In this document: positions 8,022 to 45,268 of the stretch, piece after piece
How the letters are laid out: every line of letters starts with the position of its first letter
Numbering within the stretch: the first letter of the stretch is position 1
Source: Candidatus Methylacidiphilum fumarolicum
GTDB taxonomy: Bacteria > Verrucomicrobiota > Verrucomicrobiia > Methylacidiphilales > Methylacidiphilaceae
DNA length: 64,000 nucleotides
Assembly: GCF_949774925.1 (NCBI RefSeq)
Contig: NZ_OX458932.1
Span: 744,001-808,000, forward strand
Direction: 5' to 3'
The notes under the pieces: generated by a model
Database searches by the model: none
Seen by the model: the letters and a program-made list of their open reading frames with translations, nothing else
What the model was told of the DNA's origin: nothing
Made by a program: the position numbers and the translations under genes

Positions 8022-8438
8022 CTATTCCGGCGTTTCTTGCCGTTCGATGTACTGTTTGAGGACGGTTAATGGGGCGCCCCCGCACGTGATAACGCAGTAG
8101 GAACGGCTCCAAAGAACTGCCTTACGATAGAAACGGGCGACCGTTGTGGCAAACTCTCTGCGGAGAAGCCTGGAAGAAGTTGTCTTGAGATTGTTCAGGA
8201 AGCGGCTGAGTCCAAGATTGGGTGGCAAGGCAACCAGCAAGTGAACGTGGTCAGATTCTCCGTTGCACTCAAGCAGCTGTCCGCCCCATCCCTCCCAGCG
8301 CATTTCCGCAATAGCACGCAACCGGTCAAGCATGGGGCGGGTGAGCGCCTTGCGGCGGTATTTTGTGACAAGAACTAAATGGTAGTGCAGCGCGTAAACG
8401 CAGTGATGGAGAAGGTGCAAACGCACTTGACCTGTCAT
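8022..8438 (-). CDS. tnpA: IS200/IS605 family transposase TnpA (Y1 tyrosine HUH transposase)
   Basis: 138 residues, the normal size. It contains CVYALHYHLVLVTKYRRKAL near the N-terminus, the metal-binding HUH motif in GESDHVHLLVALPP, and a C-terminal TVLKQYIERQ with the candidate catalytic tyrosine. It catalyses single-strand excision and insertion. This is the only intact tnpA of the three IS copies in the window. The start codon (8438) faces the tnpB start across a short intergenic region. Confidence 0.92.
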   Translation of the reverse strand: MTGQVRLHLLHHCVYALHYHLVLVTKYRRKALTRPMLDRLRAIAEMRWEGWGGQLLECNGESDHVHLLVALPPNLGLSRFLNNLKTTSSRLLRREFATTVARFYRKAVLWSRSYCVITCGGAPLTVLKQYIERQETPE

Positions 8439-8486
8439 TGCACTAAATGATAGACCATATTGCTGGCCACTGTCCAGCGTCGCCTC

Positions 8487-17166: not shown

Positions 17167-17825
17167 ATCATAACCTTAATTTTGATATCACCCATATGCT
17201 AGCTGGCTCAATGCTCCTAGTTAGCTTTGTTCTTCTTTATCAAGACAGAATGTTTAGCCTTCTGAACGTCTATACCGTGCATGCTTTAGTTCTTGCAGCG
17301 GCTGCTGCCTGGCAAGGATTTGTTCAGCATGCACCACATCTCTACGCCACAGCGGTTATAGCTTTGGTGTTTAAAGCGATAGCTATCCCTTTGACCCTGA
17401 GATGGTTGATTGTCAAGCTAGCAATCCACAGGGAGATAGAAAAGGTGGTAGGTTCGGGAATTTCTGTGATTGTTGGGTTTTTCCTTACCGCCTTATCGAT
17501 TACTGTCATGATGAAAGCCAGTGGGGGTACCGATCCAATGACCCGAGAGGATCTTTCATTTGCACTAGCGGTGGTGTTGATCGGTCTTTTGATGATGGCT
17601 GGTAGGCGCAATGCAATAAGCCAGGTTGTTGGATTTATGTCCATGGAAAATGGTTTGATTTTAGCAGCCGTTGGTGCAAAAGGAATGCCACTTGTTGTTG
17701 AAATAAGTGTGGCTTTTTCTGTTCTAATCGCATTGATCGTTATCGGTATCTTTCTTTTCCGAATTAGAGAAAGATTCGATGTCGTTGATATCCGTGGACT
17801 CGAAAAGTCAGGAGGTGAACGGTAA
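17163..17825 (+). CDS. HyfE-like membrane subunit (NuoK-type)
   Basis: 220 residues, the usual HyfE size, with about seven hydrophobic segments. FKAIAIPLTLRWLIVKLAIH and GFMSMENGLILAAVGAKG (a conserved membrane glutamate in MEN) match HyfE. It forms part of the ion-conducting membrane arm. It overlaps the HyfC-like gene by four bases. A strong ribosome site for the next gene, AGGAGGTG, lies within its last codons. Confidence 0.88.
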   Translation: MNHNLNFDITHMLAGSMLLVSFVLLYQDRMFSLLNVYTVHALVLAAAAAWQGFVQHAPHLYATAVIALVFKAIAIPLTLRWLIVKLAIHREIEKVVGSGISVIVGFFLTALSITVMMKASGGTDPMTREDLSFALAVVLIGLLMMAGRRNAISQVVGFMSMENGLILAAVGAKGMPLVVEISVAFSVLIALIVIGIFLFRIRERFDVVDIRGLEKSGGER

Positions 17826-17826
17826 A

Positions 17827-19257
17827 ATGTACCTGAAAGCTATTCTTATCTTTCCATTCATTGGAATACTTTTGCTGTCTTTGGTTAGAAGCTATAGGAT
17901 TTCATCCTTTTTAAACGCCCTCTTTTCTTTTCTTTCCTTTGCTAGCTCCCTTCTTTTGCTTGTCAAAAGAGAGGCAGCTGGATTGTTTTTTGTTGTAGAT
18001 GAACTCAACATCGTTTTTATCCTCCTGACAAACTTTGTTGGCTTCACGACCGCTTTGTTTAGTCAAAATTATATTGCTCATGAAATAAAGACAGGGCATA
18101 TATCCGCTGTTTCCTTGAGATTTTATCATGCGATGTATCAGTCGCTTCTTTTTGGGATGAATCTGGCGCTTTGTTCCAACAACATAGGACTGATGTGGGT
18201 TGCTATTGAAATCGCTACGCTTTCGACGGTTCTTATGGTTGGTATTTACCGAACAGCTGAAGCCCTTGAAGCTTCATGGAAATATTTCATCCTTGGTGGA
18301 GTGGGTATAGCATTGGCTCTCTTTGGAACCTTTCTTTTTTATATTTCTGCTCGCCCAGCAATTGGAGAAGGATTGTCCGCGATGGCCTGGACAAATCTCC
18401 TTTCCCATGCGTCGACCCTGGATACTTCTCTTGTGAACATTGCCTTTGTTTTCATTCTTCTGGGTTATGGAACAAAAGCAGGACTGTTTCCATTACATGC
18501 CTGGTTGCCTGATGCGCATGCAGAAGGTCCAACACCTATTTCAGCTGTGCTTTCTGGGTTGCTCCTTAACGTGGCTCTATATGCGATCCTGCGGTTTAAA
18601 ATGCTTCTTGCGGCCAATCCACATGCCTTACAGGCAGGTCCACTGCTGATGTCAATGGGACTTGCTTCCGTACTGTTCGCTGCCCTTATGCTTTACAAAC
18701 GAAGAGATATCAAACGGCTTTTTGCTTACTCCTCGATTGAACATATGGGAATTATTGCCTTTGCCTTTGGGATTGGCGGAGCGCTTGCTAACTTTGCTGG
18801 GCTTTTGCATATGAGCATGCATAGCTTGACTAAGTCAGCGATTTTCTTTGCAATTGGTTATATCTCTCAGATTAAAAGAACACAGAAGATAGCTGATTTA
18901 TCTGGATTAACAGCAAGCCATCCTGTCCTGGGATGGGGGCTTGTATTTGGGGTGCTTGCAATAGCCGGTCTTCCACCAATGGGAGTGTTTATGAGTGAAT
19001 TTTTAGTCCTCAGTTCAGCTTTTGCTAAAGCGCCACTCCTCGCAGCTTTGCTTGCCTGCGGTTTGATCATTGCCTTTGGAGCACTCTTGCTCAAACTTGT
19101 TCAAGTGGCTTTTGGAGAGCCAAAAGGGACTTCTGCTGTTGTCCCTTCCTTATATCTGCCTATGTTGAGTCATTTTCTTCTTATCCTTACTGCTGGAATC
19201 TACATTCCTCCGCATGTGGTGGAATGGTTTAAACATACCTCTTTACTTTTAAAATGA
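17827..19257 (+). CDS. HyfF/NuoN-like proton-translocating antiporter subunit
   Basis: A 476-residue membrane protein. The conserved half-channel motif is GTKAGLFPLHAWLPDAHAEGPTP with SAVLSGLLLNVALYA, and RLFAYSSIEHMGIIAFAFGIG is also conserved. I chose ATG 17827, one base after the previous stop and 9 bases after AGGAGGTG (17811-17818); the longer frame from 17779 would run back inside the HyfE-like gene. It is the second antiporter-like subunit of the operon, as in HyfF. Confidence 0.9.
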   Translation: MYLKAILIFPFIGILLLSLVRSYRISSFLNALFSFLSFASSLLLLVKREAAGLFFVVDELNIVFILLTNFVGFTTALFSQNYIAHEIKTGHISAVSLRFYHAMYQSLLFGMNLALCSNNIGLMWVAIEIATLSTVLMVGIYRTAEALEASWKYFILGGVGIALALFGTFLFYISARPAIGEGLSAMAWTNLLSHASTLDTSLVNIAFVFILLGYGTKAGLFPLHAWLPDAHAEGPTPISAVLSGLLLNVALYAILRFKMLLAANPHALQAGPLLMSMGLASVLFAALMLYKRRDIKRLFAYSSIEHMGIIAFAFGIGGALANFAGLLHMSMHSLTKSAIFFAIGYISQIKRTQKIADLSGLTASHPVLGWGLVFGVLAIAGLPPMGVFMSEFLVLSSAFAKAPLLAALLACGLIIAFGALLLKLVQVAFGEPKGTSAVVPSLYLPMLSHFLLILTAGIYIPPHVVEWFKHTSLLLK

Positions 19258-19261
19258 GTTT

Positions 19262-20794
19262 ATGAAAAAACTAGAACTTTCTCCGCATTCCACAGAAGAA
19301 GCTATAGAGATAGAGATTGAGGCTGGAAAGAGAAAGAAATGTTGGGCTTTGGAAAAAGTCAGTGAAGAACGCTGGATTGAGCTTTCCAAAGAGGTAGCTA
19401 GCGGAAAATGGACTCTATTTGGTCTTTGGGGTTCTCCTCAAAAAGTGAACATGGTTCTTCTCGATGAGTCTCAGTCAAAGCTGCAAGTGATAGAGCTGGA
19501 GACACCGCTTGGAAAATTTCCTTCGGTTGCCATAGAGATTCCCTCGGCTGCCAGGTTAGAAAGAACTATACATGATCTTTTTGGATTAATTCCTGAAGGC
19601 TCCTTCGACAATCGCCCATGGCTTGATCATGGAAAATGGCAATTGCGTTATCCCCTGGGAAGCATCCTTCCCCCTGATGAACAAAAACCCTATTCTTTTT
19701 TTCTGTCGGAAGGGGAAAATCTCCACCAGATACCTGTAGGTCCTGTCCATGCTGGTATCATTGAACCTGGTCATTTTCGATTCACAATGGGAGGGGAAAT
19801 CGTTGTGCGTATGGAAGAACGACTAGGCTATACCCATAAAGGTATTGAAAAACTTTTCTTTGAGGCTTCAATCGAAAGGGGAGCTGAAATTGCTGCTAGA
19901 ATTTCTGGTGATGCGACCGTTGCTTATTCCTATGCTTATGCTCTTGCCGTTGAAGAAGCCATGGGAGTAACTCCTTCGCCAAGGGCTGTTTGGTTAAGAG
20001 CGCTGATGGCTGAAATGGAAAGGATGGCCAATCACTTTGGGGATATTGGAGCAATCTGTAATGATGCAGCTTTCCCAAGGATTTTGAGTCGATGCGCGGT
20101 TTTAAGAGAAAAAATTTTGCGGTTTTCTAAAGATTTTTTTGGACACAGATTGATGATGGGAAGAATCGTTCCAGGAGGACTTAACGTAGATTTGAGCAAG
20201 GAAGGAAAAGAAAATCTCTGTCTGCTTCTTAAAGAAATTAAGGAGGAACTTTATTCTATAAAAAATTTTTATGATTCAAAAAACTCTTTACAAGATAGGA
20301 CGGTGGGCACAGGTGTGTTGAATGCTCGAGCTGCAAAGCTCTTTGGAGCTGGTGGATTTATTGGGAGAGCTTCTGGAAGAAACTTTGACGCTCGAAAATG
20401 CTTTGCGTATCCACCCTATGATAAACTTTCCTTTGAATCCCCTTTGTTAGAGGCAGGTGATGTCAATGCGAGGGTGTGGATTCGGATCTTAGAAATTGAA
20501 CAGAGTAGCTTGTTGATCGAACAAATTTTGAATAATTTGCCTTCTGGAAGCATCCTTTCAGTAATTAAAGAACCAAAAGTAAGCGGGCAGGGACTTGCTG
20601 TAGTAGAAAGTTTTCGTGGGGATATATTGCTATGGATAGAGATTGAAAAAGGAAAAATCAGACGCTGTCATCCAAGGGATCCTTCCTGGTTTCAATGGCC
20701 GCTGCTTGAAAAGGTTATCGTTGGAGCAGTGGTCGCGGATTTTCCGCTTTGTAATAAATCCTTCAACTGTTCCTATTCAGGACATGATCTATAA
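19262..20794 (+). CDS. Hydrogenase-4 large-subunit-like protein lacking Ni ligands (Ehr/NuoCD-like)
   Basis: 510 residues, with an N-terminal NuoC-like (30 kDa) part to about 140 and then a NuoD/HyfG-like part: GPVHAGIIEPGHFRF, RLGYTHKGIEKLF, NHFGDIGAICNDAAF and FGHRLMMGRIVPGG. True group 4 [NiFe]-hydrogenases have RxCGxC and a C-terminal DPCxxC. Here the first is RISGDA (residues 213-218) and the second is FNCSYS (501-506), so three of four nickel-binding cysteines are missing. The protein therefore should not bind a NiFe centre and resembles the Ehr (energy-converting hydrogenase-related) complexes or complex I. It is the fifth gene of the operon, five bases after the HyfF-like gene. Confidence 0.92.
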   Translation: MKKLELSPHSTEEAIEIEIEAGKRKKCWALEKVSEERWIELSKEVASGKWTLFGLWGSPQKVNMVLLDESQSKLQVIELETPLGKFPSVAIEIPSAARLERTIHDLFGLIPEGSFDNRPWLDHGKWQLRYPLGSILPPDEQKPYSFFLSEGENLHQIPVGPVHAGIIEPGHFRFTMGGEIVVRMEERLGYTHKGIEKLFFEASIERGAEIAARISGDATVAYSYAYALAVEEAMGVTPSPRAVWLRALMAEMERMANHFGDIGAICNDAAFPRILSRCAVLREKILRFSKDFFGHRLMMGRIVPGGLNVDLSKEGKENLCLLLKEIKEELYSIKNFYDSKNSLQDRTVGTGVLNARAAKLFGAGGFIGRASGRNFDARKCFAYPPYDKLSFESPLLEAGDVNARVWIRILEIEQSSLLIEQILNNLPSGSILSVIKEPKVSGQGLAVVESFRGDILLWIEIEKGKIRRCHPRDPSWFQWPLLEKVIVGAVVADFPLCNKSFNCSYSGHDL

Positions 20795-20807
20795 GGAAGA
20801 AGACCCA

Positions 20808-21320
20808 ATGAAAAGCTATTTTTTTAAAAATATTTGGCCAAGAATGTTAACTGAAAAGATTGCGACGGAGAAAGAAAGCGAACTGATTAAACTTTCAGAA
20901 ACTTTGAAAGGAGCTTGCAGAAAAAAACTTGGAAGAAGCCTGGCTATAAGGGAGGTGGATGCAGGTTCTTGCAATGGCTGTGAATTAGAAATCCATGCTC
21001 TAAACAATCCTTTTTATGATATTGAAAGATTCGGAATCCGTTTTGTGGCTTCCCCTAGGCATGCTGATCTGCTTCTAGTTACTGGTCCTGTGACCAAAAA
21101 TATGATTGAAGCCTTAAAAAGAACCTACGATTGTACTCCAATTCCTAAATGGGTAGTAGCTGTGGGAGATTGTGCTGCAGGCTGTGGGGTCTTTAAGCAG
21201 AGCTATGCAGTCATGAACGGTGGAGTAAGTGATGTTGTACCGGTTGATCTCTGGATCTATGGGTGCCCACCTTCACCGATTGATCTTCTTCGTGGATTAA
21301 TACTATTAATGGAAAGATGA
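20808..21320 (+). CDS. Hydrogenase-4 small-subunit-like [4Fe-4S] protein (HyfI/NuoB-like)
   Basis: A 170-residue peripheral-arm subunit carrying an N2-type iron-sulfur cluster. Cysteine ligands are seen in CNGCELE (Cys55, Cys58), GDCAAGCG (Cys122) and YGCPPSP (Cys153). ATG 20808 is chosen because GGAAGAAGA precedes it and the frame upstream lies inside the large-subunit gene. It is the last gene of the operon. No separate ferredoxin-like subunit (HyfA/HyfH/NuoI) and no maturation protease is encoded, consistent with a complex that needs no NiFe maturation. Confidence 0.92.
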   Translation: MKSYFFKNIWPRMLTEKIATEKESELIKLSETLKGACRKKLGRSLAIREVDAGSCNGCELEIHALNNPFYDIERFGIRFVASPRHADLLLVTGPVTKNMIEALKRTYDCTPIPKWVVAVGDCAAGCGVFKQSYAVMNGGVSDVVPVDLWIYGCPPSPIDLLRGLILLMER

Positions 21321-22524: not shown

Positions 22525-23766
22525 TCATTTGATCCTTCTTATGAATTCTCTCAAAGAACTACAATTTCTCTGGATCCATCCACGAATAGTAATAAAAGCT
22601 GAAAGGGGAATGTAGAGGAAAGATAAAAAGAAAGGCAACCGATAAGTTTTTACAATCTCTGAGGAGGGAAAACGAAGAGATTTGAGGATGAAGAAGAATT
22701 TATGTTTTTTGAAATCAAATAGCTCGTAAAGCGTAAAATAACGTGGAAGAGGGAAAGAAGAGGATCTTTTCGAGCTTTTGGGGACAGAAAGAATTTCTTC
22801 ATTTTTTATCCAACTTTTTTCTAGAATTTCAAAAACGGGTTCAGGGATAGGGCTGTTATAATAATTTTTTGATAGGGCAATACCCAATAAGCAAAATCGG
22901 CTCCAACCAAAGCGAAAGGCTTTTTCGATCACTCTTTCCCAATCTTGTTGAGAAAAGTTTGCCCATAAAATGAATTGATGAAGATCTAAAAGATAACTCA
23001 ATTTTTCCCATCGATGCTTGCCCCCATGAGCCAATAAAAAAAGAAACTCATTTTCTTTAGGCATCCTTTGAAGGGGAATACCCTCAAAAGCAGACATGGA
23101 GGATTCTTTCCATGTTGATTCCAAAAATTTTTTGTCCAATACCCCATTAAAACAGGGAGCCCAATGGAGCTCACAAATGGATGGGGCCTGATCTTCTTCA
23201 AATTTTTTTGTTAATAAAGTTAGATCTTTGTCCCAAAAAAAGAGGGAGGAAAGCTTATAGGAAGAAGGGTTGTGTGGATAGTACCCAAGTTTGGAACGAA
23301 GTAGAACGATAGCTTTTTGGATGTCTGAGGTTGGGACTAACAGATCGATATCGGTGACGGTCTTTGAAAAAAAATCTTCGTAGAGTCTTTGACAAAGGTC
23401 CAATCCTTTTAAGGATATAGTTTGGATGCCATTATCATGGAATAGAAACAGTATTTTTTTAAACTCATCCAACAGCAATGAATTCCTTTTTGAAATGTGT
23501 TTACACAGTAGACGGAATTTTAGGTCGATATCTAGAGGAATAAGAAAAGGAAAGTCATTTTTAAGTTTATTATAAACAATAGGCCATAAGGAATGTTGAA
23601 AGGAAAAATTGAAAAATTGATCCCAGTCGAAATCTTGTCTTGAAAGAATTTTTAAAAGTTCTGTTTTTTGTAAATTATCAAGCGTTTTATTGCTTAAAAG
23701 AAGCAGCGATTTTTGTTCAGGACTTAATAAGATAAAATGGTTTTCTTTCTTTTTTTTGATTTTCAT
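22525..23766 (-). CDS. Nucleotidyltransferase family protein (PF14907-like, NTP_transf_5)
   Basis: A 413-residue cytosolic protein. The core is GIQTISLKGLDLCQRLYEDF followed by VTDIDLLVPTSDIQKA, the KG..L...LY....R..DID.LV pattern of the uncharacterised nucleotidyltransferase family, whose DxD binds metal-NTP. FLLAHGGKHRWEKLSYLLDL is another family-typical segment. The extreme N-terminus is lysine-rich. It is divergent from, and shares a 164-base intergenic region with, the small-peptide operon at 23931. Such nucleotidyltransferases are known to accompany HprK-related kinase and PqqD-like genes, so it is likely part of the same system. Target (peptide, protein or sugar) unknown. Confidence 0.8.
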   Translation of the reverse strand: MKIKKKKENHFILLSPEQKSLLLLSNKTLDNLQKTELLKILSRQDFDWDQFFNFSFQHSLWPIVYNKLKNDFPFLIPLDIDLKFRLLCKHISKRNSLLLDEFKKILFLFHDNGIQTISLKGLDLCQRLYEDFFSKTVTDIDLLVPTSDIQKAIVLLRSKLGYYPHNPSSYKLSSLFFWDKDLTLLTKKFEEDQAPSICELHWAPCFNGVLDKKFLESTWKESSMSAFEGIPLQRMPKENEFLFLLAHGGKHRWEKLSYLLDLHQFILWANFSQQDWERVIEKAFRFGWSRFCLLGIALSKNYYNSPIPEPVFEILEKSWIKNEEILSVPKSSKRSSSFPLPRYFTLYELFDFKKHKFFFILKSLRFPSSEIVKTYRLPFFLSFLYIPLSAFITIRGWIQRNCSSLREFIRRIK

Positions 23767-23917
23767 TATAAGTAATAAATATAGGCATATACACTAGATG
23801 TATATTAGTGTTTCCACTGTATTTTCTTTCAGAAATCTGTCATCCTTAATTTGCTTGTGTTAGAATTTAAATTTTCTTTAATCACACTTAATCTTTTTAA
23901 AGAAGCAAACTTAACAC

Positions 23918-23924
23918 AGGAGGT
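23918..23924 (+). promoter_or_regulatory. Strong Shine-Dalgarno sequence of small protein 1
   Basis: AGGAGGT seven bases before ATG 23931. Most genes in the window have weak ribosome sites, so this consensus site suggests high translation, as expected for a precursor peptide made in excess over its enzymes. Confidence 0.7.
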
Positions 23925-23930
23925 AATTAA

Positions 23931-24275
23931 ATGAATACAGAGTTAGATTTTAGTCAATTTGAGATGGAAACTTTGGAGTCTCGAGAGCTTTTTGCAGCCG
24001 CTGCGGTGCCACATCATTTAATCAACTTGAATCTGCCTTTGGACCTTTCTCTACAAGTGAATAATCCAACCAACGGACAACATATTATTAATCTTAATCT
24101 TCCAGCCGATCTATCCCTACACGTAAATCAACCCAATTTATCAGGATTATTGCAACCGATCACGACAACGGTTTCGACTATAACAACTCCTGTGGTGGGA
24201 TTGGCAGATGGCGTTGTTAGTCCATTATTGGGAACGGTAACTGGATTGCTTGGTTCAGTTTTAGCGATTGTTTAA
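23931..24275 (+). CDS. Putative precursor/secreted small protein 1 with LEPR-XLL-like leader motif and internal repeat
   Basis: 114 residues. The N-terminal part is acidic and carries LESRELFAA at 15-23 followed by AAVPHH. It then has two copies of an 18-residue unit, HLINLNLPLDLSLQVNNP (29-46) and HIINLNLPADLSLHVNQP (51-68), and a hydrophobic Thr/Gly/Val/Leu tail with SPLLGTVTGLLGSVLAIV at the end. There is no classical signal peptide and no cysteine. The LESRELFAA block resembles the N-terminal LEPR-XLL motif known in planctomycete and verrucomicrobial exported proteins. The neighbours (radical SAM, PqqD-like, HprK-like, M50 protease, HlyD adaptors) suggest a modified and exported peptide. 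The function itself is not recognised. Confidence 0.75.
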   Translation: MNTELDFSQFEMETLESRELFAAAAVPHHLINLNLPLDLSLQVNNPTNGQHIINLNLPADLSLHVNQPNLSGLLQPITTTVSTITTPVVGLADGVVSPLLGTVTGLLGSVLAIV

Positions 24276-24291
24276 AAAACAACAAAGTCCT

Positions 24292-24321
24292 GGGCTTTCC
24301 TTTGCCTGATAAGGGAAGCCC
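24292..24321 (+). promoter_or_regulatory. Stable hairpin between the two small-protein genes
   Basis: GGGCTTTCC (24292-24300) pairs with GGGAAGCCC (24313-24321), nine pairs including one G-T, loop of 12 bases. No T-tract follows, so it is more likely an mRNA processing or 3'-stabilising element, or a leaky attenuator, than a full terminator. Such hairpins often raise the amount of the first cistron over downstream genes. Confidence 0.5.
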
Positions 24322-24369
24322 AATAGTTGAGAGTTGTGTGAAGTGCTATAGAGGAGGGAAAAGGAAAAA

Positions 24370-24762
24370 ATGAAAGAAAATTTAACTAATTGTGAGGAGA
24401 CTAAGCTTTTTGAAGTAGAAGTATTGGAATCAAGAGAGCTTTTCGCGGCAGTTGCCCTTCCTCACCACATGATGATAAATATGCCGGGAGAATTTTTAAC
24501 ACAGCCCCACAATCTCAATCATTCACCAGTACTTCATACCCAGGTTTCTACTCCACTTAGCGATCCAAGCACAAGCCAGTTGCCGGTTTATCTGCAACTG
24601 ACTATTGGAGGGCCGCAGGCTGCTCTTCAAATTGGAGAGCTGAATTTAGCTAAGGATCTTCAACCTTTGCTTAGTGGCGTTAACGGGGTTTTGAATGTAG
24701 TAACAGGACTGACTAACGATTTGCTCAGTCCCCTTTTAATTTCGGTGCTATCGATTATTTAA
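24370..24762 (+). CDS. Putative precursor/secreted small protein 2 with LEPR-XLL-like leader motif
   Basis: 130 residues. An acidic N-terminus leads into FEVEVLESRELFAA (residues 14-27) and VALPHHMM, nearly the same block as in small protein 1 (FEMETLESRELFAA, AVPHH). The middle is Pro/Ser/Thr/Asn-rich without the repeat of protein 1. The C-terminus again is a hydrophobic Gly/Leu/Val stretch, GLTNDLLSPLLISVLSII, matching the GL....SPLL pattern of protein 1. A purine-rich GAGGAGGG site precedes the ATG. The shared head and tail with a variable middle look like a precursor family with a common recognition leader. One cysteine (residue 8) lies in the leader. Confidence 0.75.
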   Translation: MKENLTNCEETKLFEVEVLESRELFAAVALPHHMMINMPGEFLTQPHNLNHSPVLHTQVSTPLSDPSTSQLPVYLQLTIGGPQAALQIGELNLAKDLQPLLSGVNGVLNVVTGLTNDLLSPLLISVLSII

Positions 24763-24831
24763 ATGATTTGTTAGGTTGGCGTCTATAAAAACAAAAATTT
24801 AAAAACAAAAATTGATTAGGAGAGAAAGAAT

Positions 24832-25023
24832 ATGGAAGAAACTTATAATTTGGCGTTAATCAATCTGGAGATCTTTGAGACAAAGCTCAAAGAAAAGATT
24901 AAATTTATGTGGAAAAATCCCCAAATTTCTCCATTGGGAAATTTAAGCCATTTTTCAAATCAGGTTCCAGATCTAAGAAACCAGCTTTTATCAGTAACTG
25001 CATTGGCGACTATTGGTTTATAA
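24832..25023 (+). CDS. Small hypothetical protein in the peptide operon, 63 aa
   Basis: Preceded by a good ribosome site (TTAGGAGAG, about 10 bases before ATG 24832). It encodes MEETYNLALINLEIFETKLK, a Trp/Asn/Pro middle and a hydrophobic end LLSVTALATIGL. The segment INLEIFETKLKEK weakly matches the leader EVEVLESRELFAA, so it may be a third, diverged precursor. It ends 11 bases before the TTG start of the kinase-like gene. Too short to assign to a family. Confidence 0.55.
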   Translation: MEETYNLALINLEIFETKLKEKIKFMWKNPQISPLGNLSHFSNQVPDLRNQLLSVTALATIGL

Positions 25024-25034
25024 GGGAAGTATTT

Positions 25035-25937
25035 TTGAAGTCTTTGAGGCGATTGGCAAATGAGAAATTCGTGATGGAACCGGGTGGGAATACTAAATTT
25101 TTGGGTAAAGCAGTAGGCTATGGCATTGGATTGTCCGGTGCTTTTCTAGAGTTTCCTCCTGCCGGTCCATTACTTTGGGGTAGTGTTCCATTAATCGTTT
25201 CTTTAGTGGAGACTTTCCCAGATTTCAATCCTAAAGAAGTTTCTGTTTTTATAGGGCCGGTCAAACTTTTAAAAAACCCTGAGAGATTGGTCATTGGGGA
25301 AAATTTTTTGTTTACTATTCAATCGACTCAAATCACTTTGGATTGTACCCATTTTATAGATGACAAGTTCCGATATTATCTTTATCAGTTGGTTTTACCC
25401 CATTTTGCTCAGCTTATAGGCCGTCTTCTTTTCCTTCATGGCGGAGCTTTTGAGGTGGATTAGCAAGCCGTGGGCTTAGTAGCTAGTTCAGGAGGAGGAA
25501 AGTCCACCTTACTTTCTGCTTTTCTAGACTTGGGATATAACCTAGTGGCAGATGATCGGATTGGTTTTGTTTTGGAAGCAGAGGAACCGTTGGTCGTACC
25601 TTCTCATCCCTATCTTAGGAACTATCGAAAAGAAGAAGACATTGGGAAGCCTGTAAGAAAGCTAACAGAGAAGATACTTCCTCTTCAAACCATTTTTTTC
25701 CTGAGGTGGACAGAAAAAGTTGAACCTTTTATTGAAAAAGTTGAACCGGGAAAAGCTTTCCAAAATCTTTTTTCTAACAGTGTGTATTTTCCAGATGTAA
25801 AAATTCAGGCTAGGAAAATATTGCGATGGTTAGCGCAAATGAAGACTTATCGGGTTTATTTGCCAAAAGGAAAAATAGAAACATTGCCGCAGGTTTGTAA
25901 TATGATTTTGTCCTTAACCATTAATGACAAAAGGTAG
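25035..25937 (+). pseudogene. HprK-related kinase (HPr-rel-A type), interrupted by an in-frame amber codon
   Basis: From TTG 25035 (ribosome site AAGGGAAG) the frame gives about 142 residues ending FLHGGAFEVD, then TAG at 25461-25463. The same frame continues without loss as QAVGLVASSGGGKSTLLSAF to TAA 25935-25937, about 300 codons in all. The Walker A motif (SSGGGKST) begins eight codons after the stop, followed by NLVADDRIGFV, as in HPr kinase-like proteins. HprK-related proteins of this kind occur next to PqqD-like proteins and nucleotidyltransferases. The single nonsense change is otherwise not accompanied by decay, so a recent mutation, a sequencing error or suppression are all possible. 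A GTG at 24909 is an alternative start but overlaps the previous gene. Confidence 0.75.
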
Positions 25938-25939
25938 TA

Positions 25940-26956
25940 ATGATAACTTATTCAGTCTTAGGAATAATGCTTAGGAAAAAATGCCCACTGGCTTGTGCGC
26001 ACTGTATTACGGATTCTTCGCCACAGGCAGAGGGAATGCTGGAGGAGTCTTTTGTTTTCTCTATCCTGGAAGAGGCAGTTGGCCTAACTCCTGTGGTGAG
26101 TTTTACGGGTGGAGAAGCGTTTTTGAATAGCGAAATATTAATCCGGTGTATCCTTAAAGCCAAAGCCCTTGGCTTTAGAGTGACAGCTGTAACAGGATGT
26201 GGATGGGTTCGAACCGAAAAACATGCTTTCTTAGTCATCGAAGCGGTTAAAAAAGCAGGCCTAGACAGGCTTTGTATCAGTTGGGATCAATATCATTTGG
26301 CTTTTAAAAACGGATGGAAATTACAAGCGGTGGCGAAAGCAGCCTGGCAGTGGAAAATTCCTTTAATCATTCGAAGTGTCATTACCCCTGCTTCCAACAA
26401 TGGAAAGGATTCATTTCTACCGGATTTAGGTGAAATCCAATATCAAACAGAAAAGATCCCTCTTATAAAGCTGGGTAGGGCCAACGACCTTCCAGAAGAA
26501 GACTTTTTTTGGACCGATTCACCTCCGACAGGCGTATGCGGGGTGATCTTAGCACCAGTGGTTGAGTATGATGGTAGGGTTTTTGCTTGTTGTGGGCCAT
26601 CTCATTATGCAGGCCATCATTCACCTTTGGTATTGGGTGATGCTAGGAGAAAATCTTTAAGAGAAATTTTATTGAAAGCAAAAGAGGATCCAATCTTAGA
26701 AATTATTGCTCTACTTGGCCCTTACGGACTATTCAGGATTCTAAAGGACAGGTTCCCTATGATTAATATTCCTGAAAGGGATCGTTATTCGAGCATCTGC
26801 GATCTGTGCATGGATATTTTGAATGAGCGGCAGTTAGTGGCAAAGCTGCGGGAATATTTTATGGAAAAGGATGGTAAAAGCTTTTTAGTGGCTGCTAGAA
26901 TGATGAAAAAATTCACCGAGGTTAATAAAAAAGAATGCCACTCTTGCGGCTCTTAA
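25940..26956 (+). CDS. Radical SAM protein with SPASM-like extra cysteines
   Basis: 338 residues. The SAM-binding [4Fe-4S] motif CPLACAHC supplies Cys15, Cys19 and Cys22; SFTGGEAFLN (residues 54-63) is the GGE motif. C-terminal cysteines occur in GVCGV (200), VFACCGP (217-218), SSICDLC (287, 290) and a terminal ECHSCGS (333, 336). They resemble an auxiliary-cluster (SPASM/twitch) domain used by peptide-modifying enzymes. It starts two bases after the kinase-like frame and is followed 15 bases later by the PqqD-like gene, a pairing typical of RiPP maturases with their recognition protein. The product modification cannot be predicted. Confidence 0.88.
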   Translation: MITYSVLGIMLRKKCPLACAHCITDSSPQAEGMLEESFVFSILEEAVGLTPVVSFTGGEAFLNSEILIRCILKAKALGFRVTAVTGCGWVRTEKHAFLVIEAVKKAGLDRLCISWDQYHLAFKNGWKLQAVAKAAWQWKIPLIIRSVITPASNNGKDSFLPDLGEIQYQTEKIPLIKLGRANDLPEEDFFWTDSPPTGVCGVILAPVVEYDGRVFACCGPSHYAGHHSPLVLGDARRKSLREILLKAKEDPILEIIALLGPYGLFRILKDRFPMINIPERDRYSSICDLCMDILNERQLVAKLREYFMEKDGKSFLVAARMMKKFTEVNKKECHSCGS

Positions 26957-26971
26957 AAAACGAGGTTTCCT

Positions 26972-27277
26972 ATGGATGTTACTAGCTCTTTTGAAAAAGT
27001 GAAGATCCCAGAGTGGATTAGTTATGAACCAATAGAAAATGAATTGATTCTTCTCAATACAATAGATTGGAATTATTATCGGCTGGATGTCTATGGGACG
27101 GTTGTGTGGAAAAAACTGGTTGACCTTGATGGAGATGTCAATGCATTAAAAAAATGGGTGCTTGAGCATTTCGAAGGGGATCCCTTTCAAATTCAAAACG
27201 ACATAGATTGTTTAATCAAAACACTCATAGAAAAAAATCTTTTGGTAATAGACCAGAAGAAGGATCCTCTGGCTTAG
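26972..27277 (+). CDS. PqqD-like protein (RiPP recognition element type)
   Basis: 101 residues. The pattern WISYEPIENELILLNTIDWN, YYRLDVYGTVVWKKLVDLDG and IDCLIKTLIEKNLLVID matches PqqD-family proteins: a strand-rich start, 'N..G..VW..L' and a winged-helix-like C-terminus. Such proteins bind leader peptides and present them to the modifying enzyme. It directly follows the radical SAM gene, suggesting that it binds the LESRELFAA leaders. It could alternatively be the PqqD-related protein of HprK-related kinase systems. Confidence 0.85.
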   Translation: MDVTSSFEKVKIPEWISYEPIENELILLNTIDWNYYRLDVYGTVVWKKLVDLDGDVNALKKWVLEHFEGDPFQIQNDIDCLIKTLIEKNLLVIDQKKDPLA

Positions 27278-27316
27278 TCTTTTCTTACCATAGAAATTGT
27301 TTTATTGCTTGTGATA

Positions 27317-29446
27317 ATGGAAAGTGAAAAAAATATACTGCTTTCTTTTTTTTCACTGCCTCCAGATGCCTTTTTTGAAAGACTTCTATCGTTTTCTAGC
27401 TCTTTTTCAAAACCGGAAGATCTTTTTGTAATTGTTAGTCAGTATTCTGTTTTACACCTTGGCATAAAGGGGATGCGTATTGGTCGGCTTATTGGAGGTC
27501 GTTGGGAAATAGTCTGGTCTTCTTCCTTAGAGCCAAATCAATGGGAAACTGATTACGAGATGAAAATTTTTTTTATCCAATGGTTCAACAAAACCTTTTT
27601 AGAGAAGCACTCTTGTTATTTACATAAGGCTCCCGCAGGCGTGGACTCCAATCATCCACAAAATGAAACACTTCAATGCTACAATACGACAGATCTACAT
27701 CATCTTTTTTTCCATCTGAGTTTAGGAGATACTCCTTGGGGAGTTGTCCATTACTGGTTGGAAGAGACAAAAGTACTTGAGCAAAACTATAGATGGCTAT
27801 CTTTGCTTAGTAGTACTCTGGGAGATTGCTTAAAGGCGATTGCGTTTGCTGGAAAACTTCTTTTTCAAAATTCCCAGGCTTCTTTTCCCAATGCCTCAGA
27901 TGGACTCTATCTGAAATGTCTTGAAGATCTGGCTGTGGAAAACGATATAGAAAGAATAGAGTTTTTACTTGTCAACTATGGGAGAGAAATCGCAGGATGC
28001 GATCGGACCTGTCTCTTTGCTGTTCCCTTAACGAGCAAAGGTTTTTCATTTTTAACCACTCAGGATTTTACAAAAGCCAATGTGTTTGAACTCAAAGCGG
28101 TCAGCTCTCTTTCGAAAATCCATAAGCAATCCGATCAAGCACTTCTATTAAAAGAGGCTGGTATAGCCCTTTTCAAAGCTGCCAATCCGCATCATTTCCA
28201 AGATAAACTGCCGAAGCAGCAAAAATCAGTTTTTGCTATTTTTTTTGATGAAGCACAAGCAATAGAAGAGCAGAAGATTAATTCGGTTGAAAGAAAGGAA
28301 GATGGCCCACTTCGAATCGGTTTTGCTATGAGGGAATCTGCAGCAAAGGAAAGGCCTTTGGCTATAATTCGTTATTTTCAGAATATTCCTATGAATTGGC
28401 TGGCTGCTTTTCCTTTGATGGATCAGCAACAAAGAATTTATGGGTTTATTTCCTGGGAGGGGAAGGAAAAGATCATTCCTAGTCTGGATCTATTTAGCCT
28501 GCTGCAAAAAATTGCCATTATTGGAGGCAAAAGTGTAGCTAGGGCCTATTTTAAGCAGAAAAAATTTTGGATTTTCTCCAAAACGACAAAGAATCATCCT
28601 CTTTTAAATCCTTTAGTCTTTTATCCCTCTTTGCTTGCATTGATCCTAATTGTCGCTTTTTTCCCTCTACCAATGAAAATAAAGGGTAATGCAGTGTTAA
28701 TTCCTTCTTATGAAATATCAGTTCCAGCCATGGTCTCAGCAAAAATCGAATCGATCCATGTCCAGATTGGAGACTATGTGAAGAAAGGGACACTGCTTAT
28801 TCAGATGGATCCGACAAATATTCTTCTTAAGATAAAGGAAGTAGAGCAGGATTACAAAAAAAGTATGGCTGAAGCTGACCTTGCTCAAAATTTGAAGCAG
28901 GAAACAGCAATGCAGCTATCCAGACTGAATGCCTTAAAATCACAAGCGATTTTAAAAAGTTTGTATAATGACTTTTATCACTGTTCTGTTCGAGCCCCGA
29001 TCGAGGGAGTTGTCATGGGACCAAGCAATTTAGTGTCCCGGAGAGGGGATATACCGCAAGTTGGAGAAATTCTAGTCCAACTAGCTGATCCGAGATATTG
29101 GAAAGTTAAGATTGCTTTAAGAGAACAAGATTTTATATATCTAGGAAGAGTGATTGAAAGAAAAAACGAGCCCCTTGGAGTTTCTTTTCGACTTGCGGCT
29201 GACCCAACCAAAAGTTATAGACTTTTTTTAAGATCTCTTTCCCAGTTTATTAGTGGGGTAGAGATCGAAGGAAAAAAATATGAATTTTCTTTGATCATTC
29301 CATGGGAAGAGAAAAACATCGATCAGTTACTTTTGAAGAAAGGCCTACGTGGTCAGGCGAAGGTTTATGTGGGGCTTAGGCCATTAGCCCATATAGCTTT
29401 ACGTGATCTCATTGGGTTTCTAAGGATTCATGTTTTTTTCTGGTAG
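27317..29446 (+). CDS. Large HlyD-type adaptor with N-terminal GAF-like cytoplasmic region
   Basis: 709 residues. The first about 430 residues are soluble and of mixed alpha/beta character, with a possible GAF-like domain (FPLMDQQQRIYGFISWEGKE near the end). One membrane helix follows (LLALILIVAFFPLP, about residues 437-450), then a HlyD/biotinyl-lipoyl region: VSAKIESIHVQIGDYVKKGT, a short coiled coil, and SVRAPIEGVVMGPSNLVSRRGD. ATG 27317 is chosen over the TTG four codons upstream; the ribosome site is weak. HlyD proteins link inner-membrane exporters to the periplasm. The soluble front suggests sensing or substrate recognition. It lies 39 bases after the PqqD-like gene. Confidence 0.8.
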   Translation: MESEKNILLSFFSLPPDAFFERLLSFSSSFSKPEDLFVIVSQYSVLHLGIKGMRIGRLIGGRWEIVWSSSLEPNQWETDYEMKIFFIQWFNKTFLEKHSCYLHKAPAGVDSNHPQNETLQCYNTTDLHHLFFHLSLGDTPWGVVHYWLEETKVLEQNYRWLSLLSSTLGDCLKAIAFAGKLLFQNSQASFPNASDGLYLKCLEDLAVENDIERIEFLLVNYGREIAGCDRTCLFAVPLTSKGFSFLTTQDFTKANVFELKAVSSLSKIHKQSDQALLLKEAGIALFKAANPHHFQDKLPKQQKSVFAIFFDEAQAIEEQKINSVERKEDGPLRIGFAMRESAAKERPLAIIRYFQNIPMNWLAAFPLMDQQQRIYGFISWEGKEKIIPSLDLFSLLQKIAIIGGKSVARAYFKQKKFWIFSKTTKNHPLLNPLVFYPSLLALILIVAFFPLPMKIKGNAVLIPSYEISVPAMVSAKIESIHVQIGDYVKKGTLLIQMDPTNILLKIKEVEQDYKKSMAEADLAQNLKQETAMQLSRLNALKSQAILKSLYNDFYHCSVRAPIEGVVMGPSNLVSRRGDIPQVGEILVQLADPRYWKVKIALREQDFIYLGRVIERKNEPLGVSFRLAADPTKSYRLFLRSLSQFISGVEIEGKKYEFSLIIPWEEKNIDQLLLKKGLRGQAKVYVGLRPLAHIALRDLIGFLRIHVFFW

Positions 29447-29517
29447 AATCTCGGATTGTGTGTAGGAAAAAACTAGATCGATCTAAAGTTTATTTCTTTA
29501 AAGAAAAGAAAGATTTA

Positions 29518-30438
29518 ATGAAAAAGATAATGAGAAAATGGTTTGTGTTTTCTCTGTCTTTTTGCTCCGTTTTTATGCTTTGGTGGCCAATGGCTTTAAA
29601 AGGTGAAGGTTTGTTTAAAGACAGCCCAGAAGCTTCCCAGTCTGAATCCCTAGAGCCTCTACTAGAAGAAAAAGGTTCCTATCAAGCTGTGCTTCTTCCC
29701 ATTGCGGATCTAAGGCTGAGTGCTAAGGCTTCTGGGATCCTCGAAAAGTTTTTTTTTGAAGAAGGAGCATGTGTCAAAAAAGGCGATATCATAGCACAGT
29801 TAAACAGTGAGGAGGAAAAAGCAGAGATTGCAAGGGCAGAGGCAGAAATTGGAGTGCATGAAGCTGAGGTTGAAAAGGCAGAAGTGGAATTTAAAAGAAT
29901 CGAAGGGCTCTACAAAGAAGAAATCGTTAGTCCTAAACAATTTGAGGAGGCTAAATATAATTATCAAATGGCCCAAAATAAATTAAAAGAAGCGAGGGCT
30001 TTATTAATAACGGCTCAGAATCGGTTAGAATCCAAAATAGTGCGTTCACCTATCGAGGGAGTGTTTTTTAAAAAATTAAGGAATGAGGGAGAGTCCGTGG
30101 AAAGATTGGAACCAGTAGCTAGAGTGATTGATGTTTCAGAGCTACAGATGGTGATTTATTGCGAATCAAAATACTTTGGGAAATTGCATCCCAAAGACAA
30201 ACTTTCCGTTAAATTGGTCGATGGACCTTTTGCTGGGAAAGTGGTGGAAACGACCGTTGTATATGTGGATCCCTTCCTTGACCCTGCCAGTGGGACTTTT
30301 AGAGTAAAATTGGTGATGCCTGCCTCAAAAGAAGTTGTTGCGGGGATTACTGCTGAGGTCGTAATACCCGAGAATAAAGAGGAATTCCCTTCTCATTCTC
30401 CAATCATAGGCTTGAATGTGGGAGAAAAGATTCGATGA
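29518..30438 (+). CDS. RND/HlyD-type periplasmic adaptor (membrane fusion protein)
   Basis: 306 residues from ATG 29518 with an N-terminal membrane segment FVFSLSFCSVFMLWWPMAL, likely a signal peptide or anchor. Then come a lipoyl half-motif (KASGILEKFFFEEGACVKKG), a glutamate-rich coiled coil (about residues 100-170) and the second lipoyl half (KIVRSPIEGVFFKKLRNEG). The C-terminus has TVVYVDPFLDPASGTFRVKL, typical of RND adaptors. No RND pump follows here, so it probably works with the flanking adaptor and protease genes. Start chosen at the ATG before the signal; the upstream GTG frame (29458) lacks support. Confidence 0.85.
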   Translation: MKKIMRKWFVFSLSFCSVFMLWWPMALKGEGLFKDSPEASQSESLEPLLEEKGSYQAVLLPIADLRLSAKASGILEKFFFEEGACVKKGDIIAQLNSEEEKAEIARAEAEIGVHEAEVEKAEVEFKRIEGLYKEEIVSPKQFEEAKYNYQMAQNKLKEARALLITAQNRLESKIVRSPIEGVFFKKLRNEGESVERLEPVARVIDVSELQMVIYCESKYFGKLHPKDKLSVKLVDGPFAGKVVETTVVYVDPFLDPASGTFRVKLVMPASKEVVAGITAEVVIPENKEEFPSHSPIIGLNVGEKIR

Positions 30439-30838
30439 AAAAAGCAAGTACTTGCTTAGAGAATTTTTTTTGAGTTTACAATTCTTCTTATTCAAAATCC
30501 TTTTTCTTTCCTAGAAGTCAGAAGGACGAGTGGAAGCTTCAGTTTTGCTTCTACAAAAATTAGTTGCTTTCATTTTTTTCTAGCAATTAAATGTCAATAG
30601 AAAAAGAATCGGTTATGAACGATGTCATTCGATTGGCTTTGGATGCTTAGTCTGATGGTGTTGCTGCGCCCAAACCAATTGATCAGCAGGCTTGTATAAA
30701 GAAGACAGCCATGATAAGGCAAGTATTACTGAAAAGAGGATTTGCGGCAGTCAAAAATGATAAAAACGCCCCTCTCTTGCTAGGCAGACATATGTTTTTA
30801 GAGGTCAGCAGCTTTTAAAAGATTATTTGATTTTTACG
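30439..30838. other. 400-base gap between adaptor and protease genes
   Basis: No gene is supported. Only very short frames are seen (for example a 19-codon one from about 30590). The break in an otherwise tight operon may hold a separate promoter for the M50 protease gene. Confidence 0.35.
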
Positions 30839-33010
30839 ATGAGTTTAGGAGTGTTCAGTCAGCAGCCAAAGACAAAAGAAAAAATTGTTCCTTATAGATT
30901 AAGAACCGATCTAATTTTTCAGAAACAAACTTTTGGTAACAAAACCTACTATATTGTCAAAGACCCCTTGGGACTTTCCTATTATAGGTTCCCTCCTCAG
31001 GAAGCTTTTCTTGCCACCCTTTTCGATGGGAAAAGAACAACAGAAGAGATAGCTGAAATTTTTAATGCTCACTGGCCGCATCGGAAGATTAACCCAGAAG
31101 AAGTGTTGCGATTTGCTTCGATTCTTAGCCGAAGGAATCTGACTATACTGCCAGCAAGCCAATGGATGGAACAACTCCCCAGAAAAGCTTCTTCTTTTTT
31201 TCATCAGCTAAGCAAAATTTTTGTAAGGATTTTTTTCATCAAATTTCCCCTTGTTCGTCCCTCTTCTTGGCTTGACAAGATTGTTCATCGCCTCTGGTGG
31301 CTGTGGTCATTCCAAGGGGTAGTGCTAACTGTTTGTTTTTGGCTTTTAACTCTTCTGTTTCTTTTTTTCCATCGCTCTACTTTTATCACCAATCAGATCC
31401 AGTTTTTTTCTCCGCAAAATATATTCTTACTTTATTTGGCTATAGTCATTGACAAGACCCTGCATGAGTTTGGTCATGCAACTACATGCCGGCGGTTTGG
31501 AGGAGAGATTCATGAGATGGGGGTAGGCTTATTCTTTTTTATTCCTGTAGGGTATGTGGATGCTTCAGATAGCTGGGTGATTCCGGATAAGAAAGCGAGG
31601 ATTTTTGTTGGGTTGGCCGGAATTTATACAGAGTTGATTGTTGCCTCTCTAGCCGCTTATTTTTGGGTTTTTCTTCCCTTAGGTCTGGCAAAAAATCTTG
31701 CCTTTAACCTTATGGTTACTGCTAGTGTGACGACCCTTTTTTTTAATTTCAATCCTTTGATGAAGTTTGATGGCTATTATGCATTAGTTGATCTGCTTGA
31801 AATACCAAATCTTCGGGAGAAATCTTTTGCGTATTGCACAGCTAAACTCCAGGAATGGCTTTTAGGATATAAAGATCCATCTAATCAAGGAAAAAAAAAC
31901 GAGGCCAAAAATGTATGGATCTTTTTTGTTTATTCTATTCTGTCTACTGTCTATATGGCTTATCTTTGTCATTCGATTGGTCAAGTTGTTAGAAGATTTC
32001 TTACGCCGATAGGGTTGGAAAGAATAGGAGAATTTTTAGAATTTTCTTTAGGGATTGCTTTTGTAATGGCTATTTTATTCAGGATTTTCTTCCAGCCTCT
32101 CTTGATGGTCTCTAAAGCCAAAGACATAAAAAAGAACGCCAGCAAGCTTAAGTGGGTTGCCATAGGAGGGATTGCTTTGGGCATACTTTGTTTGGTTCCT
32201 GTAAGAGAGAAGGTCCGAACGGTTGGAGTGGTTCGATCAGATTTCGGACAAAATGTAGCGAGTCCAGATGGCGGCATTGTCCAGGAGATATGGGTCTATA
32301 GTGGTGAACATGTAAAACCAGGCCAACCACTATTGAAATTAAGAAATGACAAAGTTGAGACTGAGACGCAGCTTGCAAGACTTGATTTGTCTATGAAAAT
32401 GGTTGGGTTCTCAAACAAAAGAACATTTCAACAAAAGGATGAAGAGGCCTCTAAATCTAAAGAAATTCAAGTAATGAAAAGTCGTTACGATTATTTTTTG
32501 AAAAAGAAAGAACAGCTTTTTCTTCGCTCATCTATTGATGGCATCATTGTCAGTCCGAATGTGGAATCTTTGAAAGGAAGATATTTTAAAGCCGGAGAAA
32601 CCATTCTCAAAATTAGGGACATGCATCATTTTTCCTTTGTGGCGCCCCTGAATCAATCTCAATCTAGGATCGTGTATCCTGGAGCTGAGGTCAAAGGGAT
32701 ATGGATAAGCACAAAAAAAATATTTCATGGTCATGTTGCCCATGTGAGCCAAAAATTGGCAGAAGTCTCTGAGTTTGATCCTGGTCATCTTGTTCCTTTC
32801 GGAGGGAAAGTTCCGGTAATTCCTTCGAGTATAAAAAAAGAATATGAAAAAAATCCTTTTTATTTTGCCTATATTCCAGTGGAAAGTCCTTCGCAATTTA
32901 TGGTGGAGGGATTGAGAGCCAAACTTGTGATTAAAGGTAAAAAAACGCTACTTGGCAAAAAAATCTATCGGTTTTTGTCTACTCTTCTTTTTTATAAACA
33001 TGAAGAATAG
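30839..33010 (+). CDS. M50 site-2-type metalloprotease with N-terminal PqqD-like and C-terminal HlyD-like domains
   Basis: 723 residues. Residues about 20-105 (LRTDLIFQKQTFGNKTYYIV, EAFLATLFDGKRTTEEI) look like a PqqD-type domain. A multi-helix membrane part contains HEFGH at 209-213 and NPLMKFDGYY from residue 305, the two zinc-site motifs of M50 proteases. After about residue 430 there is a biotinyl-lipoyl/HlyD region (GIVQEIWVYSGEHVKPGQPL, SSIDGIIVSPNVES). ATG 30839 is used; an in-frame TTG lies four codons upstream. The combination suggests a protein that recognises a leader, cleaves it in or at the membrane and hands the product to an exporter. Zinc ligands are complete. Confidence 0.87.
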   Translation: MSLGVFSQQPKTKEKIVPYRLRTDLIFQKQTFGNKTYYIVKDPLGLSYYRFPPQEAFLATLFDGKRTTEEIAEIFNAHWPHRKINPEEVLRFASILSRRNLTILPASQWMEQLPRKASSFFHQLSKIFVRIFFIKFPLVRPSSWLDKIVHRLWWLWSFQGVVLTVCFWLLTLLFLFFHRSTFITNQIQFFSPQNIFLLYLAIVIDKTLHEFGHATTCRRFGGEIHEMGVGLFFFIPVGYVDASDSWVIPDKKARIFVGLAGIYTELIVASLAAYFWVFLPLGLAKNLAFNLMVTASVTTLFFNFNPLMKFDGYYALVDLLEIPNLREKSFAYCTAKLQEWLLGYKDPSNQGKKNEAKNVWIFFVYSILSTVYMAYLCHSIGQVVRRFLTPIGLERIGEFLEFSLGIAFVMAILFRIFFQPLLMVSKAKDIKKNASKLKWVAIGGIALGILCLVPVREKVRTVGVVRSDFGQNVASPDGGIVQEIWVYSGEHVKPGQPLLKLRNDKVETETQLARLDLSMKMVGFSNKRTFQQKDEEASKSKEIQVMKSRYDYFLKKKEQLFLRSSIDGIIVSPNVESLKGRYFKAGETILKIRDMHHFSFVAPLNQSQSRIVYPGAEVKGIWISTKKIFHGHVAHVSQKLAEVSEFDPGHLVPFGGKVPVIPSSIKKEYEKNPFYFAYIPVESPSQFMVEGLRAKLVIKGKKTLLGKKIYRFLSTLLFYKHEE

Positions 33011-45188: not shown

Positions 45189-45268
45189 ATGGCATAAAGA
45201 ATATGGATGGAAGAAATTTCCATGGCGTTTTATCAAAAGTTTTGAAATCGAATAGTGCAAAAGAGTAA
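43713..45268 (+). pseudogene. tnpB: tnpB of IS copy 2, frameshift and nonsense codons
   Basis: Corresponds to the tnpB of copy 1. A one-base deletion near 43844 (CTCTGAACC against CTCTGGAACC) breaks the frame early. The TGA after FVEQC (position equivalent to 8691 in copy 1) is present here too, and a private TAG at 44801-44803 truncates the product before the zinc ribbon. The second TGA of copy 1 is a CGA here. RuvC motifs AFDLGTERFL and ITEELEPKR and the zinc-finger part persist in pieces. The frame again has no stop inside the element and ends 80 bases into host DNA. Confidence 0.88.

Follow-up and report, generated by a model that had tools for sequence, protein, structure and literature searches.

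A probable lasso-type tailoring cassette joined to a putative LEPR-signal export module in the genus Methylacidiphilum

Introduction

What could be made by a bacterial locus in which small proteins with a common N-terminal motif stand before a kinase, a radical SAM enzyme and an intramembrane protease fused to an export adaptor? The question is raised by positions 22525–33010 of a 64,000 nt stretch (the window) of Candidatus Methylacidiphilum fumarolicum, the genome of which is a single contig of 2,476,671 bp. An earlier reading made without database searches (the sequence-only reading) had named these genes and suggested leader-dependent modification, membrane cleavage and export of the small proteins. 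The proposal made here is a single operon, accompanied by a divergent NTP_transf_5 gene, that joins a tailoring cassette for a ribosomally synthesised and post-translationally modified peptide (RiPP) to an export module free of ATP-binding cassette (ABC) transporters, to give small, modified, exported peptides; the evidence leaves this explanation evenly balanced between belief and doubt. In this arrangement, which appears to be specific to the genus, a tailoring cassette of lasso type has been fused with an export module for LEPR-signal proteins.

The motif of the small proteins resembles ExLExRxLLA, a surface-protein signal of planctomycetes (PMC8567305) that, as cited in the same paper, has been termed a putative export signal since 2004. 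No open-access paper was found that names machinery for this signal. The association of HprK-related, PqqD-like and nucleotidyltransferase genes had been described as being without an assigned function, which is outdated: the precursor of lasso systems is phosphorylated by the HprK-like kinase, and hexoses are added to the phosphoserine in a reaction that requires PsmN (PMC9266682).

Results and Discussion

Composition and conservation of the locus

Pfam and NCBIfam searches of the window open reading frames (ORFs) found every gene that had been named, at or near its proposed position. The order is a divergent NTP_transf_5 gene, A1, A2, a third small gene, an HprK-like kinase, a radical SAM/SPASM enzyme, a PqqD-like protein, a GAF-HlyD adaptor, a second HlyD adaptor (HlyD2), and a PqqD-M50-HlyD fusion. 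This gene set is conserved beyond the strain, the whole block being syntenic in all five Methylacidiphilum genomes compared (tblastn of all parts onto four relatives, G001–G004). In the comparison across the genus, dN/dS was approximately 0.04–0.4 for every gene with unsaturated dS, including the small proteins; all genes of the locus are under purifying selection.

Small proteins A1 and A2

A1 (23931..24275, + strand, 114 aa) has an N-terminal ETLESRELFAA, a polar middle and a hydrophobic V/L/T/G tail, and its paralogue A2 (24370..24762, + strand, 130 aa) carries EVLESRELFAA. LESRELFAA begins after residues 14 and 18 in the two proteins, so that two small proteins with a common leader do precede the enzymes, as had been noticed, and they are conserved in the five genomes. 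Of 237 window ORFs of at least 50 aa, these two alone contain LE.R.[LF][LF].A. A degenerate DNA pattern of the signal matches twice in the whole 2.48 Mb genome, at A1 and A2, however a reversed-pattern control also has two matches and the pattern by itself is therefore weak. The case for A1 and A2 is carried by position, conservation, and ribosome-binding sites (GGAGG before A1). Across the genus, identity to the window copy is 80–96% for A1 and 54–86% for A2, with a dN/dS of 0.04–0.31 for A1.

The best Pfam match of A1 is Planc_extracel (PF07595), below cut-off (14.7 bits, with 13.4 for A2, against 25.5), and there is no NF012209 (LEPR-XLL) match for A1. Position by position, ETLESRELFA and EVLESRELFA fit the ExLExRxLLA consensus (PMC8567305), with F replacing L at one position. 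The known carriers of PF07595, the planctomycete extracellular signal, and of NF012209 share this N-terminus, but are mostly very large surface proteins, unlike A1 and A2, which are below both cut-offs. A search of 289 Verrucomicrobiota genomes gave no homologue of A1 or A2 beyond the genus.

Predicted export module

Downstream of the enzymes, a GAF-type domain is fused to an HlyD adaptor (27305..29446, + strand). The HlyD part of this earlier assignment is supported by Pfam, whereas GAF is missed by Pfam in the window protein and was detected in homologues (E down to 2e-12). HlyD2 (29458..30438, + strand) is an RND/HlyD-type (resistance-nodulation-division) periplasmic adaptor, scoring over cut-off with TIGR01730 (E 1.3e-43). 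The last gene (30827..33010, + strand) encodes a predicted leader-binding PqqD-like domain, an intramembrane metalloprotease, and an adaptor. Among NCBIfam models it fits best to the daptide HExxH intramembrane protease (3e-51) and to YydH/LiaK (1.5e-12), in each case under the cut-off, and 13 M50 homologues retain HE[FL]GH as well as the second metal-site motif. The PqqD-like N-domain of the proposed triple fusion is backed by profile comparison (66 columns, P 7e-6); Pfam sees PqqD in 2 of the 13 homologues. An AlphaFold model of the M50-HlyD protein (two sequences) was discarded at a predicted local distance difference test (pLDDT) score of 31. There is no ABC transporter among the operon ORFs.

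Among 289 Verrucomicrobiota genomes, up to 72 have M50-HlyD homologues (the profile also catches some HlyD-only matches), as have 31 of 149 Planctomycetota genomes, and homologues lie on proteobacterial plasmids too. The PqqD-M50-HlyD, GAF-HlyD and HlyD set, with or without TolC, is a separate, widespread module. Its neighbours were searched, in 10 kb flanks, for LE.[RK].[LMF][LMF] within the first 70 residues of ORFs (LExR), with a control of 20 loci picked at random in ten of the genomes that had been searched, replacing a first control from other taxa (0/55). In Verrucomicrobiota, 17 of 40 M50-HlyD loci have an LExR ORF, compared with none of the 20 random loci (P 4.6e-4), and LExRxLL N-termini are found in 18 of 485 ORFs beside M50-HlyD as against 0 of 312 in random loci (P 1.3e-4). 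The reversed motif was never found in the tested loci. Because many giant genes run off the 10 kb flanks, 17/40 is a minimum. In the four proteobacterial plasmid loci that were read, giant genes adjoin M50-HlyD, two of them annotated as LEPR-XLL proteins. The adjacency in Verrucomicrobiota and these two plasmid cases support the view that PqqD-M50-HlyD modules would serve LExR-signal proteins.

Within the genus, relative G003 has a second set (L042 1968-13726; G003:C1:118000-137000) made up of PqqD-M50-HlyD, TolC, GAF-HlyD and HlyD. It lies with a Fic-like protein and adjoins a 1208 aa PF04185 phosphoesterase starting MKKKLRIESLEKRYLMHAA, the N-terminus of which bears LEKRYLMHA. Like A1 and A2, this phosphoesterase and the Thalassospira proteins score under the PF07595 cut-off. 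PF07595 was too weak to be of use for probing genomes in six frames (4 of 289 and 3 of 149 genomes).

At several Verrucomicrobiota loci (L199, L200, L202, L206, and L208; for example L206 0-3953 and L208 0-3443), MYQLED/ERILFDGAA-type starts, a variant of LExR, lie beside M50-HlyD genes. The export module occurs on Escherichia coli plasmids too: in NZ_CP081687.1 (L075 1-13779), a gene for a giant immunoglobulin-like protein is followed by TolC, two HlyD-type adaptors and M50-HlyD.

Predicted tailoring cassette

The radical SAM/SPASM protein (25940..26956, + strand) is closest to the YydG/EpeE peptide epimerases, as judged from its sequence matches. Its best NCBIfam model is TIGR04078 (YydG peptide epimerase, E 4.8e-32), and the only solved structures matched are those of YydG/EpeE (8ai1-8ai6), over residues 7–306 and thus nearly the full length. 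Cys218 aligns with EpeE Cys223, the proposed H-atom donor (PMC8326336), and the CC pair is invariant in nine relatives; the EpeE numbering is inferred, the crystallised chain being taken as offset by 25 residues.

The three other members are the free PqqD-like protein (26972..27277, + strand), a predicted leader-binding RiPP recognition element over the PF05402 cut-off at 33.5 bits, the HprK-like kinase (25074..25937, + strand), and the 413 aa NTP_transf_5 protein (22525..23766, − strand; PF14907, E 1.9e-40), syntenic in all five genomes and divergent from the operon. The best NCBIfam matches of the free PqqD are lasso PqqD chaperones. A role for it in pyrroloquinoline quinone biosynthesis was ruled out, there being a better PqqD match elsewhere in the genome. 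In an AlphaFold model of the kinase (mean pLDDT 60), the C-terminal domain matches HPr kinase/phosphoenolpyruvate carboxykinase (PEPCK) structures in Foldseek (probability 1.0), which gives moderate confidence in an HPr kinase/PEPCK fold.

A scan of 84,980 species' genomes placed the closest radical SAM relatives outside the family in Methylococcus capsulatus Texas (40%) and a Methylococcaceae metagenome-assembled genome (MAG; 39%), alongside Methylacidimicrobium (34–37%); the remaining relatives are at most 31% identical and come from scattered bacteria. The family tree has long, doubtful branches and was used for the genus clade only. In the methanotroph relatives, the radical SAM gene sits with HprK, PqqD, PF14907, an asparagine-synthetase-like cyclase (PF00733) and an ABC exporter (the parts were not all checked in each genome), accompanied in Methylococcus and Methylacidimicrobium by the PF13471 lasso protease. 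Peptides in which a lasso leader precedes a core rich in V/T/L/G are encoded there too. Outside the genus, the closest radical SAM genes belong to lasso-peptide clusters and do not go with LExR peptides. It had been suggested that a radical SAM gene consistently placed in a different pathway would count against the system, and this objection applies in part, such a placement being found outside the genus. The PF13471 leader protease is absent from all five Methylacidiphilum genomes and present in Methylacidimicrobium. No asparagine-synthetase-like cyclase is among the cluster proteins, the rest of the genome not having been searched.

The Methylococcus (L082 6611-14079) and Methylococcaceae (L083 40-7549) loci appear to be lasso clusters that bear an epimerase. 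Each has a radical SAM enzyme of EpeE type, an HprK-like kinase and PF14907, a set common to methanotrophs. In a Rhodospirillaceae MAG (L087 9587-9937), a 116 aa protein with a hydrophobic C-terminal tail (VGATVWAVAAGSYSMASSKIAVAF) is encoded directly before an EpeE-like radical SAM gene, and is a possible epipeptide-like precursor.

Proposed mechanism

From gene content, conservation, homology and, in Verrucomicrobiota, the association of leader and M50 gene, all of which were observed directly, we infer which small protein would be modified and how, the pairing of substrates, epimerisation, the cleavage site, and export. Leader-dependent modification, membrane cleavage and export are still the most plausible reading. 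In the first module, the PqqD-like leader-binding protein would guide modification of a small precursor. The EpeE-like radical SAM enzyme would probably act as a peptide epimerase on Val/Ile/Leu-rich stretches, the HprK-like kinase would phosphorylate Ser/Thr, and the PF14907 enzyme may decorate the phosphorylated residue. The cassette would here do without the lasso cyclase (in the cluster), leader protease and ABC exporter found alongside it elsewhere. In the second module, the cargo would be proteins with an ExLExRxL(L/F)A leader, here A1 and A2. The PqqD-like domain of the M50 protein would recognise this N-terminal leader, the protease would cleave it in or at the membrane, and passage would be via the two HlyD-type adaptors and, ancestrally, TolC. 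Cleavage and export by an M50 protein have a precedent in the epipeptide system, the M50 protease of which, EpeP, is believed to carry out both (PMC10885120). One or more small, modified, exported peptides would be the most likely product.

A wider form of this proposal is tentative and rather doubtful. In it, A1 and A2 would form a new RiPP class, epimerised, phosphorylated, perhaps glycosylated, cut, and exported, and the same machine would be a general secretion route for LEPR-XLL/ExLExRxLLA proteins in Verrucomicrobiota and Proteobacteria. The statistical link between LExR and M50 offers a concrete and testable machinery candidate for the ExLExRxLLA signal, and the link to giant LExR surface proteins suggests how a long-known, unexplained tag is used. 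As small and simple putative cargo, A1 and A2 offer a means of studying a secretion route that is elsewhere associated with giant proteins. The cluster would be a case of a lasso-type tailoring cassette, common to other methanotrophs, used without lasso enzymes in extremophile methanotrophs.

Evidence against the proposal and alternative explanations

A number of findings weigh against the proposed mechanism, beginning with the joining of the two modules. Radical SAM, HprK, PqqD, and NTP_transf_5 genes are present in none of 69 M50-HlyD loci outside the A1/A2 loci, and the joining of cassette and export module therefore rests on one genus. In Planctomycetota, LExR ORFs adjoin M50-HlyD at 1 of 20 loci (control, 0/20), so the adjacency does not hold there. 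Beyond the genus, the LExR carriers beside M50-HlyD are large proteins rather than small peptides in nearly every case. The expectation that ORFs with LE[SP]R.L[LF].A would recur next to M50 genes was therefore borne out in Verrucomicrobiota and by the two plasmid LEPR-XLL giants, but not in Planctomycetota, nor as to small size outside the genus. In addition, A1 and A2 are unlike lasso precursors and may be unrelated to the radical SAM enzyme.

A different precursor is offered by the third small gene (24832..25023, + strand, 63 aa), with a leader-like WKNPQISPLGNLSHFS and the tail QLLSVTALATIGL, which is a candidate precursor of the radical SAM cassette. The sequence-only reading had admitted it with a 'perhaps'. 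In the five-genome alignment its stop is kept in all genomes, and the spacer that separates it from the kinase differs between genomes in both length and reading frame; it is therefore a gene of its own, and these two features rule out that it is the kinase N-terminus. WKNPQISPLGNLSHFS can be matched to the lasso leader YxxPxLxxxGxLxxLT at each position, provided that W may replace Y, I or F may replace L, and S may replace T; 49 of 20,000 column shuffles did as well (P ~0.0025). An hhalign comparison of the peptide with lasso precursors gave the same register as the alignment by hand, with P 0.39. As this value is high and three small proteins were looked at, the likeness is a lead only, according to which the modification cassette may in fact act on the 63 aa peptide. 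There is no NCBIfam match for it, and homologues were not found outside the genus in the 289 Verrucomicrobiota genomes, except for one marginal, stop-containing match.

It is possible, though somewhat unlikely, that the operon holds two devices. In that case the HprK/radical SAM/PqqD/NTP_transf_5 cassette would act on the 63 aa peptide alone, to give a lasso-descended RiPP made without lasso enzymes, and A1 and A2 would be secreted proteins exported unmodified by M50-HlyD. The 63 aa gene stands directly before HprK, radical SAM and PqqD, and encodes the stretch resembling a lasso leader together with a V/T/L tail similar to the cores of methanotroph lasso peptides. Elsewhere the M50 module occurs without a radical SAM gene, and the M50 protein has a PqqD-like domain of its own. 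Set against this are the weakness of the leader likeness on the measures given above and the order from A1 to M50, which is fixed in all five genomes; because of this fixed order, one pathway is favoured.

Within the one-pathway proposal, the epimerase assignment has points against it as well. The TIGR04078 score of the radical SAM protein (111.6 bits) is far under the equivalog cut-off of 300, and Ala205 aligns with the position taken as EpeE Asp210. Both would fit an enzyme of other chemistry, for example a C–C, C–S or ether cross-link or splicing, with a product that is not epipeptide-like. This is judged quite unlikely, given that EpeE is the sole structural match and covers nearly the whole protein, that the H-donor Cys aligns, and that the CC pair does not vary among the nine relatives. 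Furthermore, the C-terminal halves of A1, A2 and the 63 aa protein have no Cys, and sactipeptide-type thioethers are therefore disfavoured.

Other findings concern whether the system works in this strain. The kinase assignment stood, with two corrections, a start near 25074 and an in-frame TAG at 25461–25463 found in this genome only. The four relatives have Ser codons at this position (TCG, TCA, TCC, and TCC). The TAG falls between the H and K of the catalytic H-K-D-D motif, which is invariant in the relatives; it reflects either a loss that happened recently or an error in sequencing. The kinase is probably inactive in this strain. The M50 gene of G004 is frameshifted and in pieces. TolC is intact between HlyD2 and M50 in two relatives (L040 5443-6855 and L041 12698-14101), but in the window, G001, and G004 there is none at this position among the five genomes compared, the window having a gap of 388 bp (30439..30826). 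In this strain, TolC must be supplied from elsewhere or export must be impaired. The stop, the frameshifts and the loss of TolC from three genomes hint at decay, although the first two may be sequencing errors. That the locus is a decaying remnant, no longer working in this strain, is nevertheless considered unlikely, as all genes have a dN/dS of <0.4, including the kinase around its stop, and G002 and G003 show no visible break in their TolC, kinase or M50 genes.

Comparison with described systems

The epipeptide system epeXEPAB (yydFGHIJ) of Bacillus subtilis resembles this locus in that a radical SAM enzyme of EpeE type and an M50 protease stand beside small precursors with Val/Ile-rich cores. 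Here, however, M50 is fused to PqqD-like and HlyD domains, there is no ABC transporter for export, kinase, PqqD, and PF14907 genes are added, and the small proteins have the LExR signal. Lasso clusters with tailoring, such as those of paeninodin (PadeK) and pseudomycoidin (PsmK/PsmN), share the H-K-D-D HprK-like kinase, a nucleotidyltransferase-type enzyme and the PqqD-like chaperone, and those of Methylococcus and Methylacidimicrobium hold the nearest radical SAM relatives. They differ from this locus, which has no cyclase in the cluster, no PF13471 in the genus, no clear lasso precursor, and export by M50-HlyD. With type I secretion and tripartite export there are HlyD adaptors in common, and TolC in two relatives, but this operon is without an ABC, RND or MFS (major facilitator superfamily) pump and has the intramembrane protease-adaptor fusion in its place.

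No description of the joining of cassette and export module was found in the open-access papers searched, most subscription papers being outside the search, which agrees with the earlier statement that no system known to the sequence-only reading joins these parts. The parts are of known kinds, and the novelty would lie in the combination.

Neighbouring features

Just upstream of the locus, at 17779–21320 of the window, there are genes like those for group 4 hydrogenase/complex I subunits. Two GC-rich, closely similar islands of IS200/IS605-type appearance are found at 8022–10070 and 43847–45268. The first has a TnpA-like gene at 8022–8438 and a TnpB-like gene at 9045–10070, and the second copy is split.

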